From a virus, in IMG/VR virus record IMGVR_UViG_3300021247_000202, positions 1 to 39,633 of that record: a stretch of 39,633 bases of DNA, one strand, 5' to 3'. Shown in pieces: positions 5,060 through 38,916 of this stretch. The notes beneath the pieces are model-generated. The model was given only the letters and a program-made list of their open reading frames with translations, was not told the DNA's origin and did not search any database. The translations under genes and the position numbers were made by a program. Position 1 is the stretch's first letter. The number at the start of each line of letters is the position of its first letter.

Positions 5060-5764
5060 ATGAAATATAAATCAGTATTAGTTATCTCGGATCTGCATAT
5101 ACCTTATCACCACCCACAAGCATTTGCTTTTCTCAAAGCCCTTAAAACAAAATACAAGCCAGATCATGTAGTCAATATAGGCGATGAACTAGATATGCAT
5201 GCGATGTCTATGCACGACTCTGACCCAGACCTTTATTCAGCTGGCCATGAGCTTGCAGCCTCCATATCTTATATTCAAAAGCTTGAAAAGATATTCCCAA
5301 AGATGACTATCGTTCACTCAAACCATTCATCTATGTTGTTTAGACGTGCACTTAAACATGGTGTGCCTAAAGGTTACCTTAAACACTACAATGATTATCT
5401 TGGCGTAGGTAATGGTTGGCAGTGGGTAGACGATCATACAATTACATTATCAGATGGTTCACGTTGTTTCTTTACTCACGGACTATCCGCTGATGTGCTT
5501 AAAGTAGCCATGCAATACGGGATGAACACAGTGCAAGGCCACTACCATACCAAGTTTAGTATCGGATACTATTCTAATCCAGATGCTTTAGTTTGGGGAA
5601 TGCAGGTAGGCTGTCTCATCAATCAAAAGTCAATGGCATTCCAATATGCTAAGAACTTTAAAACAAGATTCATTGTAGGTTGCGGTATGATTATTAATGG
5701 TCAACCAAAGCTTATGCCAATGGTATTAACCGAAAACGGTCAATGGACTGGTAAACTTGTATAG
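5060..5764 (+). CDS. Calcineurin-like metallophosphoesterase
   Basis: A 234-residue enzyme with the metallophosphoesterase motif series: SDLH (Asp11, His13), GDELD (residues 41-45), a modified third motif SNHSS (Asn88, His89), THG (about 139) and GHYH (about 160). These residues hold two metal ions and hydrolyse phosphoesters. The third motif is SNH in place of the usual GNH. Substrate is unknown; phage members may act on nucleotides or nucleic acids. A clear ribosome binding site (AAAGGGAAATC) precedes the ATG. Confidence 0.8.
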   Translation: MKYKSVLVISDLHIPYHHPQAFAFLKALKTKYKPDHVVNIGDELDMHAMSMHDSDPDLYSAGHELAASISYIQKLEKIFPKMTIVHSNHSSMLFRRALKHGVPKGYLKHYNDYLGVGNGWQWVDDHTITLSDGSRCFFTHGLSADVLKVAMQYGMNTVQGHYHTKFSIGYYSNPDALVWGMQVGCLINQKSMAFQYAKNFKTRFIVGCGMIINGQPKLMPMVLTENGQWTGKLV

Positions 5765-6398: not shown

Positions 6399-7013
6399 TT
6401 ACCAAAACATTGTCAATACGCCATCTATGCGTATTAAATGACCTTGCATTGTGATCCTATATTCATTAGGCACATATTCCCTCAAGCTTGCAATCCTATG
6501 TAACACCGTTCCATCATGACCTATGAATTCTTTTTCTTTATAGGGTAAATACTTCTGCATACCATCTTCAATATAATCCATACCAGCCCCACCTGTCGGC
6601 AGTTTAATTGCTATTGTAAAAGTGTATGGGTCTATAGGGTCTAATCCAAGTGTAATGTGCGGGTAGTCTTGATGCCATAGGCCTGCATGGGTTAGCAGGA
6701 ACGGACTAGATCTAAATATATGGAAGGAAGGAACAGCCAGTCTTTCACTTAGTGCTACTGGTTCATTAAACTGATTAGATAAGTGATCAAGAATGATACC
6801 ATATAGAATATCAAACTCTTTTAATAGGATTGGGTTAAGTGTTTTGATTTCGTCTTGGTAAGCTTCAGTCCTACCATCTAAGTAGGCGCATCTTCCAAGT
6901 GTGTAGAAGGGGAATTCGTCTGATCTGGATATCCAATGGTGCTGTAGTCTAAAAACTTTATCAGCTATCTCATCAGTATTAATATCAAGTGTATGAAATA
7001 TAAAAGGGGACAT
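6399..7013 (-). CDS. 2-oxoglutarate/Fe(II) oxygenase-like protein
   Basis: A 204-residue protein. The C-terminal half shows a full set of non-haem iron oxygenase residues in the right order: HxD at WHQDYP (His114, Asp116), a distal histidine in TVLHRI (His172) and an arginine 14 residues later in EYRITMQGH (Arg186) that would bind 2-oxoglutarate. Such enzymes hydroxylate or demethylate proteins, nucleic acids or small molecules; the substrate here is unknown. It lies 44 bases downstream of pqqA on the same strand, with AATAGGGGGCTT as ribosome binding site, so the two are probably co-transcribed. A different cupin-type oxygenase is possible. Confidence 0.6.
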   Translation of the reverse strand: MSPFIFHTLDINTDEIADKVFRLQHHWISRSDEFPFYTLGRCAYLDGRTEAYQDEIKTLNPILLKEFDILYGIILDHLSNQFNEPVALSERLAVPSFHIFRSSPFLLTHAGLWHQDYPHITLGLDPIDPYTFTIAIKLPTGGAGMDYIEDGMQKYLPYKEKEFIGHDGTVLHRIASLREYVPNEYRITMQGHLIRIDGVLTMFW

Positions 7014-7057
7014 AAGCCCCCTATTATACTACTAATAACAATCTGTTACGATGATCA

Positions 7058-7129
7058 TTACTTGTTCATTACGTACATAGTTACTTCAAAGCCAAATCTC
7101 ATTTCTGTTGCAGCTGGTTTAGTCCACAT
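7058..7129 (-). CDS. pqqA: PqqA, precursor peptide of the cofactor PQQ
   Basis: A 23-residue peptide that starts MWTKPA, has the core RFGFEVTMY and ends VMNK. This is the PqqA pattern: the Glu and Tyr separated by three residues (Glu15 and Tyr19) are the two residues that the radical-SAM enzyme PqqE joins to begin making pyrroloquinoline quinone, and the MWTKPA start matches many bacterial PqqA peptides. Length is the usual 22-24 residues. A strong ribosome binding site (AAAGGAGAACGTT) precedes the ATG. No pqqB, C, D or E is in the window, so the host's enzymes would have to process it. The gene was easy to miss because of its length. Confidence 0.88.
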   Translation of the reverse strand: MWTKPAATEMRFGFEVTMYVMNK

Positions 7130-7457
7130 AACGTTCTCCTTTGTAGATCAATTGTTCTAGAATTTGCTACACAAAGCACCTTGTCTTGCATTTATAACAA
7201 GAAACTTACTTTGTTATGCATATAATGCGCCTTTTGCTATACAAAATCCTCCATAAAATCATGAGTTTTGCCTGCAAAGTATACTTTACATCTAGTTCAA
7301 GGCAAAAATGCCTGTTTTACTAATTAAATCATATACTTAATCTTACAAATTAGTCTTTTTATTTGTAATTAAACGCAAAAAAGTAATATATTGACAAATC
7401 TCTATATAACAAAACCACAATATATAGTGTTTTTTATATAACTTTTTACTATATGTA
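7130..7457. other. Non-coding stretch upstream of pqqA
   Basis: No credible gene is visible. The stretch is very AT-rich and should contain the minus-strand promoter of pqqA, although I see no convincing consensus -35/-10 pair. It holds two copies of a 13-base word (listed separately), a short GC hairpin (AAGGC-AAAAAT-GCCTG) near 7305 and a lone TTGACA at 7391-7396 without a well-spaced -10 box. Confidence 0.5.
7163..7245. repeat. Two copies of TTTGCTAYACAAA
   Basis: TTTGCTACACAAA at 7163-7175 and TTTGCTATACAAA at 7233-7245 are identical except for one base and start 70 bases apart. Each is a loose palindrome (TTTG...CAAA). Their place just upstream of pqqA suggests operator or promoter sites, but two copies of an AT-rich 13-mer is weak evidence. 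Confidence 0.35.
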
Positions 7458-11288: not shown

Positions 11289-12118
11289 GATTCGAAGACT
11301 TCGCAAGGATACATGGCCTCATCATAGATCATGTTATACCACATAAACAGATGAGAACTTCCACAGAAGACCACCCAAGAAAAAAGAATGGTTCTTATAA
11401 ATTCTTAGGTGATGTTGGATTTGTGATGAATTGGGCTACTATGACAGAGCCAGCAGTTTGGTTTCCTGATGATAAAACCGCCTCAAGCTCAGTAATAGCA
11501 AAGCCTTTGATAGATCACACTAAGGAACGGGAACGCCTAGCTAAGAAAGCGATTGATAAAGCGGGTTGGATATTGCACCAATGTAAAGAAGAAACCCACC
11601 CATACCTAGCCTCCAAAGGATTTCCTAATGAAGTAGGTAATGTATGGACTAAAGATAATGAGCGCATATTAGTTATACCCATGCGGATCGACAAAAGACT
11701 TGTGGGTTGTCAGCTCATCAACGACAAGGGGGTCAAGAAGTTCTTGTATGGACAGACGACTAAGGGGGCAACCTTCACCATGAACGCAAAGGGCTTCCCC
11801 ATCTTCTGTGAGGGGTATGCGACTGCCCTCAGCGTCAGAGAGGCCATGATCGCCAACAACATCAAGTATTCTATCTATGTTTGCTTTAGTGCAAATAACA
11901 TGAAGTTTGTAGCAGGGAAGTTTCCCTACGGGCTCGTCATTGCCGATAATGATAATTCCCATGTTGGTGAGATTACCGCTAGGAAAACAGGCAAGCCTTA
12001 TTGGATTTCGCCCGCAGTCTCCGAAGATTTCAATGATTTTCATAAACGAGTAGGCACATTTAAGGCCTCTCAATCCCTCAAGAAAAAATTAATAGAGATA
12101 GGTAGTCTAGTGTTCTAA
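11285..12118 (+). CDS. Toprim-domain primase-like protein
   Basis: A 277-residue protein. The C-terminal two-thirds carry a Toprim fold: FPIFCEGYATALSVREA (catalytic Glu near 170) and GLVIADNDNS (Asp-x-Asp near 219-221). The N-terminal 60 residues (DHVIPHKQMRTSTEDHP...) resemble the start of small phage primases but no complete zinc-binding motif is visible. It probably makes RNA primers, working with the helicase whose gene it overlaps. No DNA polymerase gene follows. Confidence 0.75.
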   Translation: MRFEDFARIHGLIIDHVIPHKQMRTSTEDHPRKKNGSYKFLGDVGFVMNWATMTEPAVWFPDDKTASSSVIAKPLIDHTKERERLAKKAIDKAGWILHQCKEETHPYLASKGFPNEVGNVWTKDNERILVIPMRIDKRLVGCQLINDKGVKKFLYGQTTKGATFTMNAKGFPIFCEGYATALSVREAMIANNIKYSIYVCFSANNMKFVAGKFPYGLVIADNDNSHVGEITARKTGKPYWISPAVSEDFNDFHKRVGTFKASQSLKKKLIEIGSLVF

Positions 12119-12127
12119 ACTACCTAT
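12098..12127. terminator. Hairpin between convergent genes
   Basis: ATAGGTAGT (12098-12106) and ACTACCTAT (12119-12127) form a perfect nine-base stem around a 12-base loop that includes the primase stop codon. It lies between the convergent primase and lysin genes. There is no clear T tract, so it may act as a terminator or only protect the transcript end. Confidence 0.45.
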
Positions 12128-12133
12128 TATAGA

Positions 12134-12514
12134 TCAATAAAAATATAGATTATTGACTTGTGCTAATAAAGGTTTGTTGAATACATTCTTGCTTGGGTGT
12201 ATTCTTGCATCATGGAAGAATTTAGAATGCCCAACAGGATTGTATGTATATCCCTTTTGTTTTGTTAGAAATTTAACCGCTTGTAGCTTATAAGTTAGTA
12301 ATTGAATATGGCTTGGTTCTTTTGCCTTACCTTGTTGTAGCAAGGTTATATATTCAAATTGCTTAGGCTCGTAAACTACATCACAGACTCGGCTAATCGT
12401 TTTGGCTCTGTTCATAACAACATTATAAACCGCCTGTTGATTAGCAAAATCACCACCCGCTTCACCAAATAATACTAGGGCTAAGCAAGTTGTTGCTAGT
12501 TCTAGTTCTACCAT
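12134..12514 (-). CDS. SleB/CwlJ-type cell wall hydrolase (lysin)
   Basis: A 126-residue enzyme of the SleB (Hydrolase_2) family, which cuts peptidoglycan. LALVLFGEAGGD contains the catalytic Glu (Glu18), followed by AVYNVVMNRAK and VCDVVYEPKQFEYI, the usual family order. No signal peptide is visible; release to the wall would need a holin, and a holin-like gene is at 29256. Unusually for a lysin it is isolated on the minus strand, after the primase, away from the tail genes. The ribosome binding site is AGAGGACTATTT. Confidence 0.85.
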   Translation of the reverse strand: MVELELATTCLALVLFGEAGGDFANQQAVYNVVMNRAKTISRVCDVVYEPKQFEYITLLQQGKAKEPSHIQLLTYKLQAVKFLTKQKGYTYNPVGHSKFFHDARIHPSKNVFNKPLLAQVNNLYFY

Positions 12515-12573
12515 AAATAGTCCTCTTTGTTATTATGGAACGCACAGAGTATCAGTATTATCAAGGCTTTCAA

Positions 12574-12599
12574 AGCATACATGGTCATAAATGTATGCT
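12574..12599. repeat. Perfect inverted repeat upstream of the lysin
   Basis: AGCATACAT (12574-12582) and ATGTATGCT (12591-12599) are exact reverse complements around an eight-base centre. It lies between the terminator of the small-protein operon and the lysin start, so it could be an operator for late expression of the lysin or a processing hairpin. Confidence 0.45.
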
Positions 12600-12601
12600 A
12601 A

Positions 12602-12622
12602 AATAAGCCTTACGGGCTATTC
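12602..12622 (-). terminator. Terminator of the minus-strand small-gene operon
   Basis: In minus-strand sense AATAGCC pairs with GGCTTATT (one bulge) around CGTAA and is followed by TTTAG. The stem overlaps the stop codon of the last gene of the operon. Confidence 0.5.
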
Positions 12623-12844
12623 CTTTACCTCTTCAATCCTAAACTCATCTGTTTCATACATACTATCTATTTCCTTGCGTTTAAATGCCTTGTGTTCTTG
12701 ATCTAAAAAGTAATCTAACGCTTTTTGTGCGTCTTCATAAGTATCATAAACATCTGCGACTTCATTACCATCATCATCATAAGTAGTCCATGTATTAATC
12801 CAACCATCACATAATGTATAGTGTTGCACCTCGTATCTAGTCAT
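12617..12844 (-). CDS. Small acidic protein, paralogue family member
   Basis: A 75-residue protein with RYEVQHYTLCDGWINTWTTY, then YDTYEDAQKALDYFLDQ and a C-terminal DEFRIEEVKE. The layout (N-terminal strand, a helix beginning with a D/E-E-A pattern, a final strand) is that of small phage and plasmid proteins and is shared loosely with the array at 13709-14405. A strong ribosome binding site (AAGGAGGGGATTAAAA) precedes the ATG. Function unknown. Confidence 0.6.
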   Translation of the reverse strand: MTRYEVQHYTLCDGWINTWTTYDDDGNEVADVYDTYEDAQKALDYFLDQEHKAFKRKEIDSMYETDEFRIEEVKE

Positions 12845-12846
12845 TT

Positions 12847-13143
12847 TTAATCCCCTCCTTTGTAAAATTTATCAAAGTCTTCCCCGTAAAAAGCTCTAGG
12901 GCAACCTTTTGTTATTCGCCACCAACTATCCTCATCATAACCACTACTTGAAAATTCAAAATCAATGTTTATCCAAGTATATAAGTCTTCTCTTCCGTCT
13001 TCTTCTTCACAGGCTTGGGTTTCCCAATCACCCACCTCTGCCTTATCAAGCGTAAAGTCATCTTCACCAAACAACTCTATACCAACATAACTTGCTATAA
13101 AGTCTTTAAACTCATCTACATCTTCTTCTTTTAAGTATGTCAT
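12847..13143 (-). CDS. Highly acidic small protein
   Basis: A 98-residue protein with about one third Asp and Glu (KEEDVDEFKDF, ETQACEEEDGREDLY, SGYDEDSWW). Its strong negative charge and beta-rich content resemble DNA-mimic proteins that block restriction or recombination enzymes, but no such family is recognisable. GGAGGGTAT precedes the ATG. Confidence 0.6.
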   Translation of the reverse strand: MTYLKEEDVDEFKDFIASYVGIELFGEDDFTLDKAEVGDWETQACEEEDGREDLYTWINIDFEFSSSGYDEDSWWRITKGCPRAFYGEDFDKFYKGGD

Positions 13144-13151
13144 ATACCCTC

Positions 13152-13343
13152 CTATTGTGAATTATTCATAGCCTCTTTATTCAAGGCCATAGTTTCAATA
13201 CAATTATTAAAGCGGTGCATAGCTACATCTCTGATTGCTATCATAAGTTCAAGGTATTCATTACCCTCAACACCCTCAATCTCATCAGCATCTTGCATAG
13301 CATTCATTACATTCGTATATATTTGAAAAGCCCTTTTGTTCAT
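13152..13343 (-). CDS. Small helical protein
   Basis: A 63-residue protein, MNKRAFQIYTNVMNAM..., mostly helical. ATG at 13343 is chosen because GGAGG lies seven bases upstream; an in-frame TTG further upstream exists. That upstream extension is in the frame that the preceding gene would enter if its G tract changed length by +1 or -2 (see the G tract entry). Function unknown. Confidence 0.55.
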   Translation of the reverse strand: MNKRAFQIYTNVMNAMQDADEIEGVEGNEYLELMIAIRDVAMHRFNNCIETMALNKEAMNNSQ

Positions 13344-13525
13344 GATAAATCCTCCTCTGTTATCCAACCAACCCCCCCCCCCCCCCCCCCCCCCACCCCA
13401 CGGTAATAATTAGACATACCTTTGATAGCCCATTCACATAGGCTAGTTCTGCCCATGTCATATACTTCTTGTTCTATTGCAAACATGATCTCATCTATAT
13501 CGCTATCTGAAAGTTCTTTATTCAT
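13340..13525 (-). CDS. Small acidic protein with poly-glycine from a G tract
   Basis: A 61-residue protein starting MNKELSDSDIDEIMFAIEQE. Near its C-terminus a run of 23 G on this strand encodes RGVGGGGGGGVGW, then ITEEDLS and stop. ATG at 13525 is placed five bases from the GAGGAGGA ribosome binding site. The glycine run is unlike anything else in the operon. Its coding frame depends on the exact length of the G run, so the C-terminus as given is provisional. Confidence 0.5.
   Translation of the reverse strand: MNKELSDSDIDEIMFAIEQEVYDMGRTSLCEWAIKGMSNYYRGVGGGGGGGVGWITEEDLS
13372..13394. repeat. 23-base homopolymer C tract (G on coding strand)
   Basis: An uninterrupted run of 23 C lies inside a minus-strand gene, with a further CCCC after a single A. 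This is extreme for an AT-rich genome. It is expected to slip during replication and is also a known weak point of sequencing and assembly. Its length sets the reading frame downstream. Confidence 0.9.
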
Positions 13526-13706
13526 CATCTTCCTCCTCGAATATATCTGAATATAAACCATCAATATCATCATCAGTCATTTTTATGTATCCTTCATGAC
13601 CATTCTTCAATACATAAGCCACGAATTGTTCTAACCCTCTATGATCTTCAAAAATGTTATCCATATCACGATTAATTAAATCGTTTATTTTTTGTTCTCT
13701 TGTCAT
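13518..13706 (-). CDS. Small acidic protein, unknown
   Basis: A 62-residue protein: helical start (REQKINDLINRDMDNIFEDH) and a very acidic end (SDIFEEEDDE). Its last bases overlap the next gene by eight. No family recognised. Confidence 0.55.
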   Translation of the reverse strand: MTREQKINDLINRDMDNIFEDHRGLEQFVAYVLKNGHEGYIKMTDDDIDGLYSDIFEEEDDE

Positions 13707-13708
13707 AA

Positions 13709-13870
13709 CTATTCCTCCACATCATCTATTGTAAAATTATCGCTATCGCAAGGCTCTAAATTACCAAACCTCAAGTCATTAAACTTCTCAATAGCTTCCT
13801 CTTTTGTTTCTGCTTCAATATCTTCTTTATAAAACACTTGTTCGCTTGCTCTTATTCTAAATATTGGCAT
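13709..13870 (-). CDS. Paralogous small protein, FRIRASEQVFY type
   Basis: A 53-residue protein with AAGGAGG upstream; ATG at 13870 is preferred over an earlier in-frame one. MPIFRIRASEQVFYKEDIEA is followed by a TKEEAIEKF helix and a final NFTIDDVEE strand. The same order is found in the next three upstream genes, so they are probably duplicates. Similar small proteins occur in many phages; role unknown. Confidence 0.6.
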   Translation of the reverse strand: MPIFRIRASEQVFYKEDIEAETKEEAIEKFNDLRFGNLEPCDSDNFTIDDVEE

Positions 13871-14027
13871 TTTTAACCTCCTTAACCAAAATCTCATCTA
13901 AATATTCAGCATTAATAGGATCAATGCTTCCCTCGCCATCATAAAGCCTAGCAATAGCACTATCCTCTGTATCAGCATCAATCATGTAATATTGATATAA
14001 TGTTTCTCTCAACATAAATTTAGGCAT
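13857..14027 (-). CDS. Paralogous small protein
   Basis: A 56-residue protein (MPKFMLRETLYQYYMIDADT, then EDSAIARLYDGEG). It has the family order of a short strand, an acidic turn D-A-D-T-E-D and a helix. Overlaps the paralogues on both sides by 8 to 14 bases. Function unknown. Confidence 0.55.
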   Translation of the reverse strand: MPKFMLRETLYQYYMIDADTEDSAIARLYDGEGSIDPINAEYLDEILVKEVKNANI

Positions 14028-20461: not shown

Positions 20462-20682
20462 CCCCAGCACAAAAAGAAATCTTTCTGATAGTAGATGAGT
20501 TCTGGAAGACCTACGGCTTTGGTCCGACTATTGACGATATTATGCGTCTAACGGGCGAAAGAGGTAGGGGGAATGTAGCCCGTAAGATGTCTATCTTAAT
20601 CGAGATAGGGGTATGCAAAGGGGTGAAGGGTAGGGCTAGATCAATCCGACCTGCAGGATTAAGGGTGCGTAATCTTGAGTGA
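20458..20682 (+). CDS. LexA N-terminal-like winged-helix protein
   Basis: A 74-residue protein: TPAQKEIFLIVDEFWKTYGF, GPTIDDIMRLTGERGRGNVA, KMSILIEIGVCKGV, then RARSIRP. This is the layout of the LexA DNA-binding domain (helix, GxxPT-like turn, recognition helix, wing with R-A-R-x-I) without the protease domain. Likely a DNA-binding regulator, possibly of the structural operon. It lies just before the large terminase and overlaps it by eight bases. Confidence 0.7.
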   Translation: MTPAQKEIFLIVDEFWKTYGFGPTIDDIMRLTGERGRGNVARKMSILIEIGVCKGVKGRARSIRPAGLRVRNLE

Positions 20683-22168
20683 TAAAGTCGTAGAACTCAT
20701 GAATCTACTATCTCCTGAAGAACAGCAGATGGTATTAGAACAAGTCAGAGAGTATGACAATGCTCTTCTACGTGAAGAAGGCCAAGAAGACTTTATGAAG
20801 TTTGTAACTACGATGTGGCCTGGATTTATCCATGGTAGACATCATGTCTTGATGGCTAGGAAGTTTGAACAGATCGCTAATGGTGAGATCAAACGATTAA
20901 TCATCAATATGCCTCCTAGACACACAAAGTCTGAGTTTGCATCGTTTATGCTACCCGCTTGGTTCTTAGGAAGGTTTCCAGGCAAAAAGATTATCCAATG
21001 TTCTAATACAGCTGAACTTGCAGTTGGGTTTGGACGAAAGGTGCGAAATCTGGTAGACTCTGAAGTATATGCCAAAATATTCCCAAACGTGGCCCTTCGC
21101 TCTGACTCTAAAGCTGCTGGCCGTTGGTCTACTAATGCCAATGGTGAGTATTTTGCTATTGGTGTTGGTGGTACTGTCACTGGTAAAGGAGCTGATCTTC
21201 TCATCATTGACGATCCTCACTCGGAGCAAGAAGCAGCGTTAGCCGCAGGCGACCCTACCGTATACGATAAAGTCTTTGAGTGGTATACCTCTGGTCCACG
21301 TCAACGTTTACAACCAGGCGGTTCTATTGTGGTCGTTATGACCCGTTGGGCTAAACGAGATCTGACTGGAAGAATTCTACAATCCATGACAGACCGTGAT
21401 GGTGATGAATGGGAGATTATTGAACTCCCAGCGATTTTACCTTCAGAGAAACCTTTATGGCCTGAGTTCTGGTCATACGATGAATTAAGCAAATTAAGAA
21501 TAGAGTTGCCGTTAAGTAAATGGCAAGCTCAGTATCAACAAGACCCCACTTCTGAAGAAGGTGCGCTAGTTAAGCGTGAATGGTGGCAAGAATGGGAACA
21601 TGAAAACCCACCTTACTGCCAGTTTATTATTCAGTCATGGGATACCGCATTTACTAAGAATGAGCGTTCTGACTATTCAGCATGCACAACATGGGGAGTA
21701 TTTTATAAAGACGAGAATGAAAATGACCCTCATATTATTCTTCTTGATGCTTTTAAAGAGCGGATGGAATTCCCAGAACTTAAAGCAAGAGCTTTGGAAT
21801 ACTACCAAGAATGGCAACCAGATGCCTTTATTATCGAAGCAAAGGCCTCTGGAGCCCCGTTAGTCTTTGAATTAAGAAGGATGGGAATACCCGTTCAAGA
21901 GTTTACACCGACCCGTGGAAACGATAAAATAAGCAGATTAAACTCTGTAACAGATTTATTCGCATCTGGCAAGGTGTGGGCTCCAAGAAAACGTTGGGCC
22001 GAAGAAGTCATAGAAGAGATGGCAGCTTTTCCAAATTCAGACCACGATGACTTAGTGGACTCTTCAACCCAAGCTCTTATTCGGTTTAGAAAGGGAGGAT
22101 TCGTTAATCTTCCTACAGACGAACCTGACGAACCAAGAGAATTTAGACGCAAAGTAGCATATTACTAA
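20675..22168 (+). CDS. terL: Terminase large subunit
   Basis: A 497-residue packaging motor. The ATPase part has Walker A MPPRHTKS (79-86), Walker B LLIIDD (175-180) and a coupling motif near VVVMTRW. The nuclease part has QSWDTAF (about residue 326), FIIEAKASG and SDHDDLVDS, the acidic residues that bind metal. The start given is TTG at 20675 (MSDKVVEL), preceded by AAGGGTG; ATG at 20699 is an alternative. It drives DNA into the capsid through the portal encoded next. Confidence 0.93.
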   Translation: MSDKVVELMNLLSPEEQQMVLEQVREYDNALLREEGQEDFMKFVTTMWPGFIHGRHHVLMARKFEQIANGEIKRLIINMPPRHTKSEFASFMLPAWFLGRFPGKKIIQCSNTAELAVGFGRKVRNLVDSEVYAKIFPNVALRSDSKAAGRWSTNANGEYFAIGVGGTVTGKGADLLIIDDPHSEQEAALAAGDPTVYDKVFEWYTSGPRQRLQPGGSIVVVMTRWAKRDLTGRILQSMTDRDGDEWEIIELPAILPSEKPLWPEFWSYDELSKLRIELPLSKWQAQYQQDPTSEEGALVKREWWQEWEHENPPYCQFIIQSWDTAFTKNERSDYSACTTWGVFYKDENENDPHIILLDAFKERMEFPELKARALEYYQEWQPDAFIIEAKASGAPLVFELRRMGIPVQEFTPTRGNDKISRLNSVTDLFASGKVWAPRKRWAEEVIEEMAAFPNSDHDDLVDSSTQALIRFRKGGFVNLPTDEPDEPREFRRKVAYY

Positions 22169-27341: not shown

Positions 27342-28250
27342 ATGGCTATTTCACGTGCACAGCTCCTAAAAGAGCTATTACCAGGTCTTAACGCACTATT
27401 CGGTTTAGAATATGCAAGATATGGCGAAGAACACAAAGAAATCTACGAAACAGAGACTTCAGAGCGTTCATTCGAAGAAGAAACAAAACTATCAGGCTTC
27501 TCAGCAGCACCAGTTAAAAACGAAGGCACTGCCATCGCTTATGACAATGCTCAAGAAGCATGGACAGCTCGATACAATCATGAAACTATCGCTCTTGGCT
27601 TCAGCTTAACTGAAGAAGCTATTGAAGATAACTTATATGATTCTTTATCAGCTCGTTACACAAAAGCTTTAGCAAGAGCTATGGCTTACACAAAACAAGT
27701 TAAGGCTGCTGCAGTTATTAATAACGGCTTCAGTGCTTCATACGCTGGTGGTGACGGCAAAGCTTTATTTGCTACTGACCATCCACTTGTTTCAGGCGGT
27801 ACAAATAGTAACACTCCATCAACAGCAGCTGACTTGAACGAAACTTCATTGGAAAATGCAGTTATTCAAATCGCAGCTTGGACTGATGAGCGTGGTCTAT
27901 TAATTGCAGCTAAACCTAAAAAACTTATCGTTCCACCAGCATTGCAATTCGTTGCAACTCGCTTGTTAGAAACTGAGTTACGTGTTGGTACAGCTGACAA
28001 TGATATCAATGCTATTAAGAACAATGGTTCTATCCCAGAAGGTTATACAATTAACCACTTCTTGACAGACACAAACGGTTGGTATTTAACAACTGATGTT
28101 CCTAATGGTATGAAACACTTTGTTCGTACTCCATTAAGCAACTCAATGGACGGTGACTTCGATACAGGTAACGTACGTTATAAATCACGTGAACGTTACT
28201 CTTTCGGTTGGTCAGATCCGTTAGGTATGTTTGGTTCACCAGGTGCTTAA
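27342..28250 (+). CDS. Major capsid protein
   Basis: A 302-residue protein with a very good ribosome binding site (AAGGAGAAAAAAAC). It has RAQLLKELLPGLNALFGLEY, an alpha-helix ITLG-like region FSLTEEAIEDNLYDSLSARY, and SFGWSDPLGMFGSPGA at the end. Length, position after the scaffold and decoration genes, and use of common Ala/Gly codons fit an HK97-fold capsid protein. It is followed by a strong terminator, which would isolate a high-expression transcript. Confidence 0.85.
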   Translation: MAISRAQLLKELLPGLNALFGLEYARYGEEHKEIYETETSERSFEEETKLSGFSAAPVKNEGTAIAYDNAQEAWTARYNHETIALGFSLTEEAIEDNLYDSLSARYTKALARAMAYTKQVKAAAVINNGFSASYAGGDGKALFATDHPLVSGGTNSNTPSTAADLNETSLENAVIQIAAWTDERGLLIAAKPKKLIVPPALQFVATRLLETELRVGTADNDINAIKNNGSIPEGYTINHFLTDTNGWYLTTDVPNGMKHFVRTPLSNSMDGDFDTGNVRYKSRERYSFGWSDPLGMFGSPGA

Positions 28251-28270
28251 TTAAGCATTTGATGGTAGAA

Positions 28271-28296
28271 AAGGTCTTCTTCGGAAGGCCTTTTTT
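28271..28296 (+). terminator. Intrinsic terminator after the capsid gene
   Basis: AAGGTCTTC (28271-28279) pairs with GAAGGCCTT (28284-28292) around a UUCG tetraloop, with one G-T pair, and is followed by a T tract. A textbook terminator. Confidence 0.9.
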
Positions 28297-28348
28297 ATTT
28301 GCTAAAATACTAGCGTTTACGGGCAAAAGTATTGTAAAATAAACATAT

Positions 28349-28404
28349 CCAGGCACATCCTGGTTTATTAGACTGTCCTGGCAGACGCATAAAAGACTAA
28401 TAAG
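28349..28404 (+). promoter_or_regulatory. Structured RNA leader downstream of the capsid terminator
   Basis: CCAGG 28349-28353 pairs with CCTGG 28359-28363; TTATTAG 28365-28371 pairs with CTAATAA 28397-28403, enclosing CTG 28373-28375 with CAG 28382-28384. The element sits in the untranslated leader between the capsid terminator and the next virion gene. It may regulate late expression or mark a processing site. No known riboswitch is recognised. Confidence 0.45.
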
Positions 28405-28429
28405 CCTAACTTTTTATGAAGGAAAAATC

Positions 28430-28909
28430 ATGTCAAGAACTACATTTTCAGGTCCAGTGAAATCAGGTACTAATAGATATTCACCAACTAAAAACGTTGG
28501 AACAACAGTATTAACACAAGCTACAGCATTTGCATTTACAGCTGCTGGCACAACAACAAACACATTCTATATTCCAGCTGCTAGTAAAATCTTAAGCATT
28601 ACTTTTGATACTACATCAGCATTCACAGGTGGTACAGGTGCTGTAACAGTTGGTAACGTTGCTTCAGGTACACAATATGCTTCATCAACAACAGTAACAT
28701 CTGGTGGTCGTGCAACTCCAACATTTACAGCTGCACAATTAACATCAATGTTATCAACTCCAATTGATGTAGCAGCAGCTAACAGCCAACAAGCTTCTTC
28801 AGCTATTGCAGTAACAGCAGTTGCAGGCGCAGGTGTAACAGCTGGCTCATTAGTGGTTACAATCACTTACATTCAATCTGATGACAGATCATCATACGAT
28901 ACACAATAA
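28430..28909 (+). CDS. Virion-associated beta protein
   Basis: A 159-residue, Thr/Ala/Ser-rich beta protein: RTTFSGPVKSGTNRYSPTKN, then FAFTAAGTTTNTFYIPAASK. The Phe-Ser-Gly-Pro-Val start is seen in uncharacterised structural proteins after capsid genes. AAGGAAAAATC upstream. Probably a head or neck component. Confidence 0.6.
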   Translation: MSRTTFSGPVKSGTNRYSPTKNVGTTVLTQATAFAFTAAGTTTNTFYIPAASKILSITFDTTSAFTGGTGAVTVGNVASGTQYASSTTVTSGGRATPTFTAAQLTSMLSTPIDVAAANSQQASSAIAVTAVAGAGVTAGSLVVTITYIQSDDRSSYDTQ

Positions 28910-38325: not shown

Positions 38326-38916
38326 ATGGCAAGCATAGTATATTGGATTCATTTAGAAGAACATACTGATATGTTTACTCAAGGATATATTGGCGTATCC
38401 AAAGACCATAAAAAAAGATGGTACGACCATAAAAATAGACCTTCTAATGCACATTTAAAAAACGCCATACAAAAATATGGATGGGATAAGCTAATTAAAA
38501 CTATTCTTTTGGTTGCTGATGAAGCTTATTGTTTATTAATGGAAACTAAACTTAGATCAGAAGATAAAACTGGTTGGAATGTAGTTAAAGGCGGTGGTAT
38601 GCCACCTAGTTCTTTAGGTAAAACATTTACTGTGTCAGAAGAAACTCGTAAAAAAATTAGCCTTGCAAACAAAGGTCATAGACATACGCCTGAGATTGAA
38701 GCCTTAGTCACTAAAAATTTATTGATTCATGGATTAAAAACAAGATTTACTAAAGGTTTTACACCATGGAATAAAGGTTTAGAAATGGGTAAAGAAGCAT
38801 TAAAACATTTGCATATTAAACTAACTTGCCCACATTGTAATAAAATAGGCAATTTAGGTGGAATGAAGAGATGGCATATGGATAACTGTAGATTAAAAGG
38901 AATAGATAATGGCTAA
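38326..38916 (+). CDS. GIY-YIG homing endonuclease with NUMOD3
   Basis: A 196-residue protein. The N-terminus has a degenerate GIY-YIG domain (VYWIHLEE..., GYIGVSKDHKKRWYDHKNRP with Arg31, and a later Glu in METKL). LGKTFTVSEETRKKISLANK (about 97-116) is the NUMOD3 DNA-binding motif, and CPHC with a C-terminal Cys suggests a small zinc knuckle. It lies between tail genes with no intron visible, so it is a free-standing homing endonuclease, a mobile gene. Confidence 0.8.
   Translation: MASIVYWIHLEEHTDMFTQGYIGVSKDHKKRWYDHKNRPSNAHLKNAIQKYGWDKLIKTILLVADEAYCLLMETKLRSEDKTGWNVVKGGGMPPSSLGKTFTVSEETRKKISLANKGHRHTPEIEALVTKNLLIHGLKTRFTKGFTPWNKGLEMGKEALKHLHIKLTCPHCNKIGNLGGMKRWHMDNCRLKGIDNG

Follow-up and report, generated by a model that had tools for sequence, protein, structure and literature searches.

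A 23-codon gene for PqqA, the precursor peptide of pyrroloquinoline quinone (PQQ), is predicted in a virus record of 39,633 nucleotides (hereafter the window), the genome of a tailed phage that most likely infects a methylotroph of the Methylophilaceae. Such a phage would supply its host with a consumed substrate and not with enzymes, keeping host PQQ synthesis and methanol oxidation running in infection, a reading to which we give a probability of roughly 0.77. It is built on the identity and conservation of the peptide, on its spread among otherwise different methylophages and on the lack of partner genes in the viral records searched.

The pqqA gene and its phage

Profile and homology searches confirmed that positions 7058-7129 encode a predicted peptide of the PqqA family (MWTKPAATEMRFGFEVTMYVMNK), the gene being a conserved viral one and not a chance frame. 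The peptide scored 42.4 bits against Pfam PF08042 (E 6.4e-11; cut-off 21.1) and 40.4 bits against the NCBIfam equivalog TIGR02107 (cut-off 20). In six frames of the whole record pqqA was the single match to PF08042, and none was obtained in 14 control genomes. The frame reads on the minus strand from an ATG at 7129 to a TAA ending at 7058; with its 23 codons, ATG and AAAGGAG ribosome binding site, it has the form of the short free-standing genes of about 23-29 codons that characterize the family. It shares with them the W-T-K-P leader, the R-F-G-F-E-V-T-M-Y core and the pair Glu15 and Tyr19 in E-x3-Y spacing, equivalent to Glu16/Tyr20 of the M. extorquens reference PqqA (PMC10906245), but differs in forming a unit of one gene, carried by a phage and separate from pqqBCDE. 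The peptide is identical to PqqA of Methylophilus and Methylotenera. Since its 21-residue core (WTKPAATEMRFGFEVTMYVMN) is written in 25 different DNA versions among other viral contigs, the frame lies far beyond chance. The original prediction had placed the gene at these coordinates without stating the strand and had pointed to the strong ribosome binding site, the length and the Glu-Tyr spacing; it was right on all of these, both curated profile cut-offs being exceeded and the frame, Glu and Tyr being kept in related phages. The features considered here are the following.

6399 to 7013, minus strand: gene for a 204-residue probable 2OG-Fe(II) oxygenase (HxD...H...R; phrog_24927), 3' of pqqA
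7003 to 7022, minus strand: intrinsic-terminator-like hairpin 3' of pqqA, overlapping the start codon of the gene that follows on this strand (terminator scan)
7058 to 7129, minus strand: pqqA, 23-residue PQQ precursor peptide (PF08042, TIGR02107, viral homologues)
7136 to 7142, minus strand: Shine-Dalgarno sequence AAAGGAG, 6 nt before the pqqA ATG, an SD-like motif common to viral pqqA
7191 to 7199, minus strand: candidate extended -10 element (TG-T-TATAAA), 61 nt before the pqqA ATG, weak and seen by eye
20675 to 22168, plus strand: terminase large subunit, marking the record as a tailed phage (phrog_38, E 3e-112)
27342 to 28250, plus strand: Mu gpT-like major capsid protein (comparison with capsid relatives)
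28251 to 28346, plus strand: capsid-side cargo slot, without pqqA in the window (comparison with relatives)

Viral genes lie on both sides of pqqA, as expected of an auxiliary metabolic gene (AMG) inside a viral genome. Besides the terminase and the capsid protein, the record encodes an exonuclease, an Erf annealing protein, a SprT-like protein, a metallophosphoesterase, a helicase, a primase and a cell-wall hydrolase; no tRNA was found in it. A frame resembling a GIY-YIG endonuclease was noticed by eye behind tail-fibre-like genes (38326-38916, plus strand). The metallophosphoesterase gene (5060-5764, plus strand) also occurs about 0.4-2.3 kb from pqqA in MEP301/L242, L116, L023, L068, L060, L052 and L078, which are otherwise different methylophages. 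Spacers and tRNA played no part in assigning the host, which was deduced from related phages and from the similarity of the peptide; the methylotroph host suggested by the original prediction is borne out by this similarity and by the pqqA-bearing phages of Methylophilales/-aceae. In the likely host family, pqqA was present in all 120 genomes sampled, with 1-12 copies each, and at one host locus (L130) homologues of pqqB/C adjoin it.

An exact TATAAT is over-represented 30-59 nt upstream of phage pqqA: it occurs there in 32 of 118 genes, compared with 12 of 400 phage genes of other kinds and 1 of 123 pqqA copies of hosts. Transcription from a promoter of its own is thus probable for many a phage copy. 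A simple promoter scan around the window pqqA gave no excess over the shuffled expectation. On the 3' side, terminator-like sites are enriched in the pqqA region (6 found versus 0.5 expected), and a tail TAATGRTYATMGTAACAGAYTGYTATTAG with a GC hairpin and a T-run follows both the window pqqA and the capsid-side pqqA of L018, L102 and L110. No known RNA families were found near pqqA. A hairpin upstream of phage pqqA was considered as a distinctive element and rejected as weak, its mean z of -0.96 exceeding in strength that of other phage genes (-0.42) but not that of host pqqA (-1.21), and the window giving +0.6.

Distribution of pqqA among viruses

Two patterns were used on IMG/VR. The first, degenerate one (W-x-K-P...[FL]-E-[VI]-T-x-Y) occurred in at least 120 stretches, and all 120 matches listed were complete PqqA genes of 23-25 residues. 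The second, with residues 2-9 left free, also occurred in at least 120 stretches and, among the matches listed, 113 new loci read as full-length PqqA. Complete pqqA genes are present in at least about 230 IMG/VR viral contigs. As the patterns fixed several residues (Glu15 and Tyr19 were required in the first), conservation at these sites is partly by construction. Arg11 and Gly13, neither of which is set by the pattern, are nevertheless constant in the 120 listed copies of the first pattern. Each of these also starts with ATG behind an SD-like motif and has its stop codon exactly four residues beyond Tyr19. Over the pattern-free codons of viral pqqA, dN/dS was about 0.14, an approximate value with synonymous sites near saturation. 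Viral pqqA is thus, as judged from its codons, under strong purifying selection and is present in unrelated phage lineages. A Lys4 to Thr leader, seen in P19250A, L339 and others, was rejected as a phage-specific trait, as 109 of 187 Methylophilaceae genomes also carry WT[T/S]P.

Among 50,697 phage records (INPHARED), pqqA was found in 9 records of cultured Methylophilales/-aceae phages, 1 uncultured Manatee Spring phage and 2 'Acinetobacter phage' entries, and the more distant enterobacterial-type peptide retrieved the same twelve records as query. The cultured phages are Venkman, P19250A, MEP301, MEP401/402 and Melnitz (nine GenBank records), a count that leaves out MEP431-434, HIM624-A, MG-MTP1 and RSA-MFP1, other Methylophilales/-aceae phages named in NCBI taxonomy. 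Each has one pqqA with a peptide 77-96% identical to that of the window, but their genomes and gene locations are unrelated to it. In the cultured phages inspected, pqqA is unannotated or overlain by an annotated ORF on the wrong strand, and the papers on cultured methylophages PMC9004378, PMC10580990 and PMC8024684 say nothing of a phage pqqA; the gene went unnoticed because standard gene callers miss 23-codon genes.

The two entries named 'Acinetobacter phage MD-2021a' (CAKLQF020000010.1 and CAKLQH020000055.1) both match pqqA, and the one inspected looks like a mislabelled bacterial chromosome because it contains pqqBCDE behind pqqA as well as ppk. An exact Pseudomonas/Acinetobacter-type pattern (DLRIGFEVT[ML]Y), which does match the Acinetobacter gene itself, had zero matches in IMG/VR. 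An enterobacterial-type pqqA (MWKKPAFIDMRLGLEVTLYISNR or close) was observed at the edge of lambda-like prophage records (L407, L403, L363, L352, L395, L420 and L432), with a TATAAT box, a terminator and a neighbour encoding a signal-peptide protein that, by eye, may be a TonB-type receptor. This gene is either prophage cargo or flanking host DNA next to the attachment site; PqqB was not found in the five records of the group that were searched.

In the capsid lineage of the window, pqqA has a preferred site. All 10 pqqA-bearing contigs with an 84-90% identical capsid protein carry it 141-166 nt behind the capsid gene on the same strand, with a terminator-like hairpin 3' of it in the relatives inspected. 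The window pqqA has moved from this slot and lies at 7.1 kb on the opposite strand. Eight phages with a 41-71% identical capsid (SAR11, cyanobacteria, Roseobacter, Alcaligenes, Caulobacter, lake or sea water) had no match to the pqqA profile, which matches all 50 pqqA viral records elsewhere. When 80 IMG/VR loci were picked by the window capsid protein alone, pqqA stood behind the capsid gene in 2 of the 68 with enough sequence and, in the same lineage picked without regard to pqqA, it occurred anywhere in only 1 of 38 longer records. Given these low counts, pqqA is not needed by this phage type as such; by these comparisons, it appears to track the host and not the phage type.

Two further observations concern the region 3' of the capsid gene. 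Elsewhere in the lineage (L258-L337), the slot holds variable, unrelated small ORFs, some of them HNH- or GIY-YIG-like by eye. Downstream of the window capsid gene and ahead of the gene that follows it, positions 28347-28430 (plus strand) can fold into a double pseudoknot of three interleaved helices, with the last strand abutting the Shine-Dalgarno sequence. This element fits 30 of 30 capsid-lineage relatives selected by eye, whereas 2.3% of shuffled sequences fit it; the three helices are represented by 11, 25 and 13 different sequences. In Rfam it gave weak generic hits but none reaching the gathering cut-off, and it may be related to RF03012 (Mu-gpT-DE), by name a Mu gpT downstream element.

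A broader reading, to which we give somewhat less than an even chance, is that pqqA is near-universal yet overlooked in methylotroph phages and was gained repeatedly by unrelated lineages. It would often stand alone and, in one capsid lineage, right behind the major capsid gene, as a consumed precursor limiting the PQQ supply during infection, with a related self-contained unit at the enterobacterial prophage edge.

Proposed role of the peptide and rival readings

Exactly one pqqA copy was present in each of 50 viral records checked. In these, neither PqqE over cut-off (0/50, with weak radical-SAM-like matches in three) nor a PQQ alcohol dehydrogenase (0/50) was found; PqqB was absent from 19 further viral records and tblastn detected no PqqB-E in the collected viral pqqA loci. 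In the window itself, inspection of the listed frames by eye revealed neither PqqB-E nor a PQQ alcohol dehydrogenase, the profile searches having covered related records; the earlier claim that no other pqq gene accompanies the phage pqqA agrees with both. Since one PqqA peptide is spent per PQQ and PqqBCDE are catalysts, the substrate is all that a phage has to provide. Published expression and copy-number data fit a demand for peptide rather than enzyme. Indeed, Methylosinus trichosporium transcripts amount to 11,857-13,927 for pqqA versus 161-372 for pqqB/CD/E, about 30-80 fold (PMC3615186), five copies of pqqA are present in a PQQ producer grown on methanol (PMC9851590), and xoxF is the most abundant transcript of OM43 (PMC5120137).

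Upon infection, the phage would make extra PqqA from a working pqqA, and host PqqD and PqqE would join Glu15 to Tyr19 of the phage peptide. Host peptidases, PqqB and PqqC would then complete PQQ, to be loaded into the host methanol dehydrogenase. The phage peptide would in this way stand in for that of the host while host transcripts are falling, and sustained methanol oxidation would provide energy and carbon for phage replication. Expression of the gene, acceptance of the peptide by PqqD/PqqE, higher PQQ and an effect on fitness are all inferred here, as is the rise in methanol oxidation put forward in the original prediction.

The extra copy might be redundant because host genomes already hold several, and a true pqqA could thus be a small, cheap gene of marginal or occasional benefit, the more so as existing PQQ may last one infection cycle. 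This is unlikely, as a gene retained by unrelated phage lineages and strongly constrained by purifying selection has probably been beneficial repeatedly. The same selection speaks against a brake, in which excess phage peptide would tie up PqqD/PqqE, or reduce host PQQ synthesis by some other route, and so redirect host metabolism. A very short, abundant protein could titrate a chaperone, and excess substrate can have side effects. In a decoy, however, Glu15 or Tyr19 could be lost without penalty, whereas the phage peptides keep both of these cross-linking residues, and the remainder of the core, exactly as in hosts, in which the phage leaders WTKP, WTTP and WTSP occur too. We regard such a brake as improbable.

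A phage enzyme might also convert the peptide to a compound other than PQQ, the obvious candidate being the 2OG-Fe(II) oxygenase, the gene of which begins 45 nt downstream of pqqA on the same strand. The encoded protein has uncharacterized relatives in Prochlorococcus phages (about 28%) and shares H114, D116, H172 and R186 with that of L005; its AlphaFold model (pLDDT 50) was too poor to use. However, the gene is not conserved beside pqqA, being found at one other viral locus, 5 kb from its pqqA, a terminator-like hairpin lies between the two genes, and the closest capsid relatives hold pqqA alone behind the capsid gene. Peptide and oxygenase as a new modified-peptide system were rejected on the lack of conserved neighbourhood, and a different product is very unlikely. 

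Most improbable of all is that the segment is a piece of host pqqA, present as an integration site or through contamination. The attP of a phage can consist of a short host gene end, and this segment is indeed short and encodes a peptide identical to a host one. On the contrary, compared with the nearest sampled host copies, each flank has about 32/45 mismatches, i.e. a random level, versus 7.5/63 inside the gene, where the differences are mostly synonymous, and BLAST similarity to host contigs covers little beyond the gene and its ribosome binding site (window 7057 to about 7142). No tyrosine integrase (PF00589) was found in the window or the isolate phages, and viral contigs carry pqqA at several genome positions. 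With flanks unrelated to host DNA and no such integrase, pqqA is not an attachment site.

Earlier reports and significance

The supply of a consumed substrate has a parallel in cyanophage psbA, a phage AMG. In both cases a host-derived gene would replace a fast-consumed host product in infection, but the window gene provides a consumed substrate peptide and not an enzyme or reaction-centre protein. The original prediction had cautioned that pqqA might have been reported in phages before, and rightly so. The gene was described in 2020 in the Lake Baikal methylophage population VP_266 and read as an AMG for methanol oxidation (PMC7678222), and it was listed among genes of reservoir viruses in 2026 (PMC13188868). 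The window shares with VP_266 a phage-borne pqqA interpreted as an AMG, but VP_266 is T4-like and a methanol dehydrogenase was also reported in that phage, whereas the window belongs to a different lineage in which no such gene was seen. As far as searched, four points are new, no description having been found in the open-licence PMC literature: the wide occurrence among methylophages, cultured as well as uncultured, the missing annotation, the substrate-only pattern, and the slot next to the capsid gene.

Cultured phage-host pairs exist, which makes the idea directly testable. If pqqA works as proposed, phages would influence marine and freshwater methanol oxidation via a consumed peptide rather than an enzyme.
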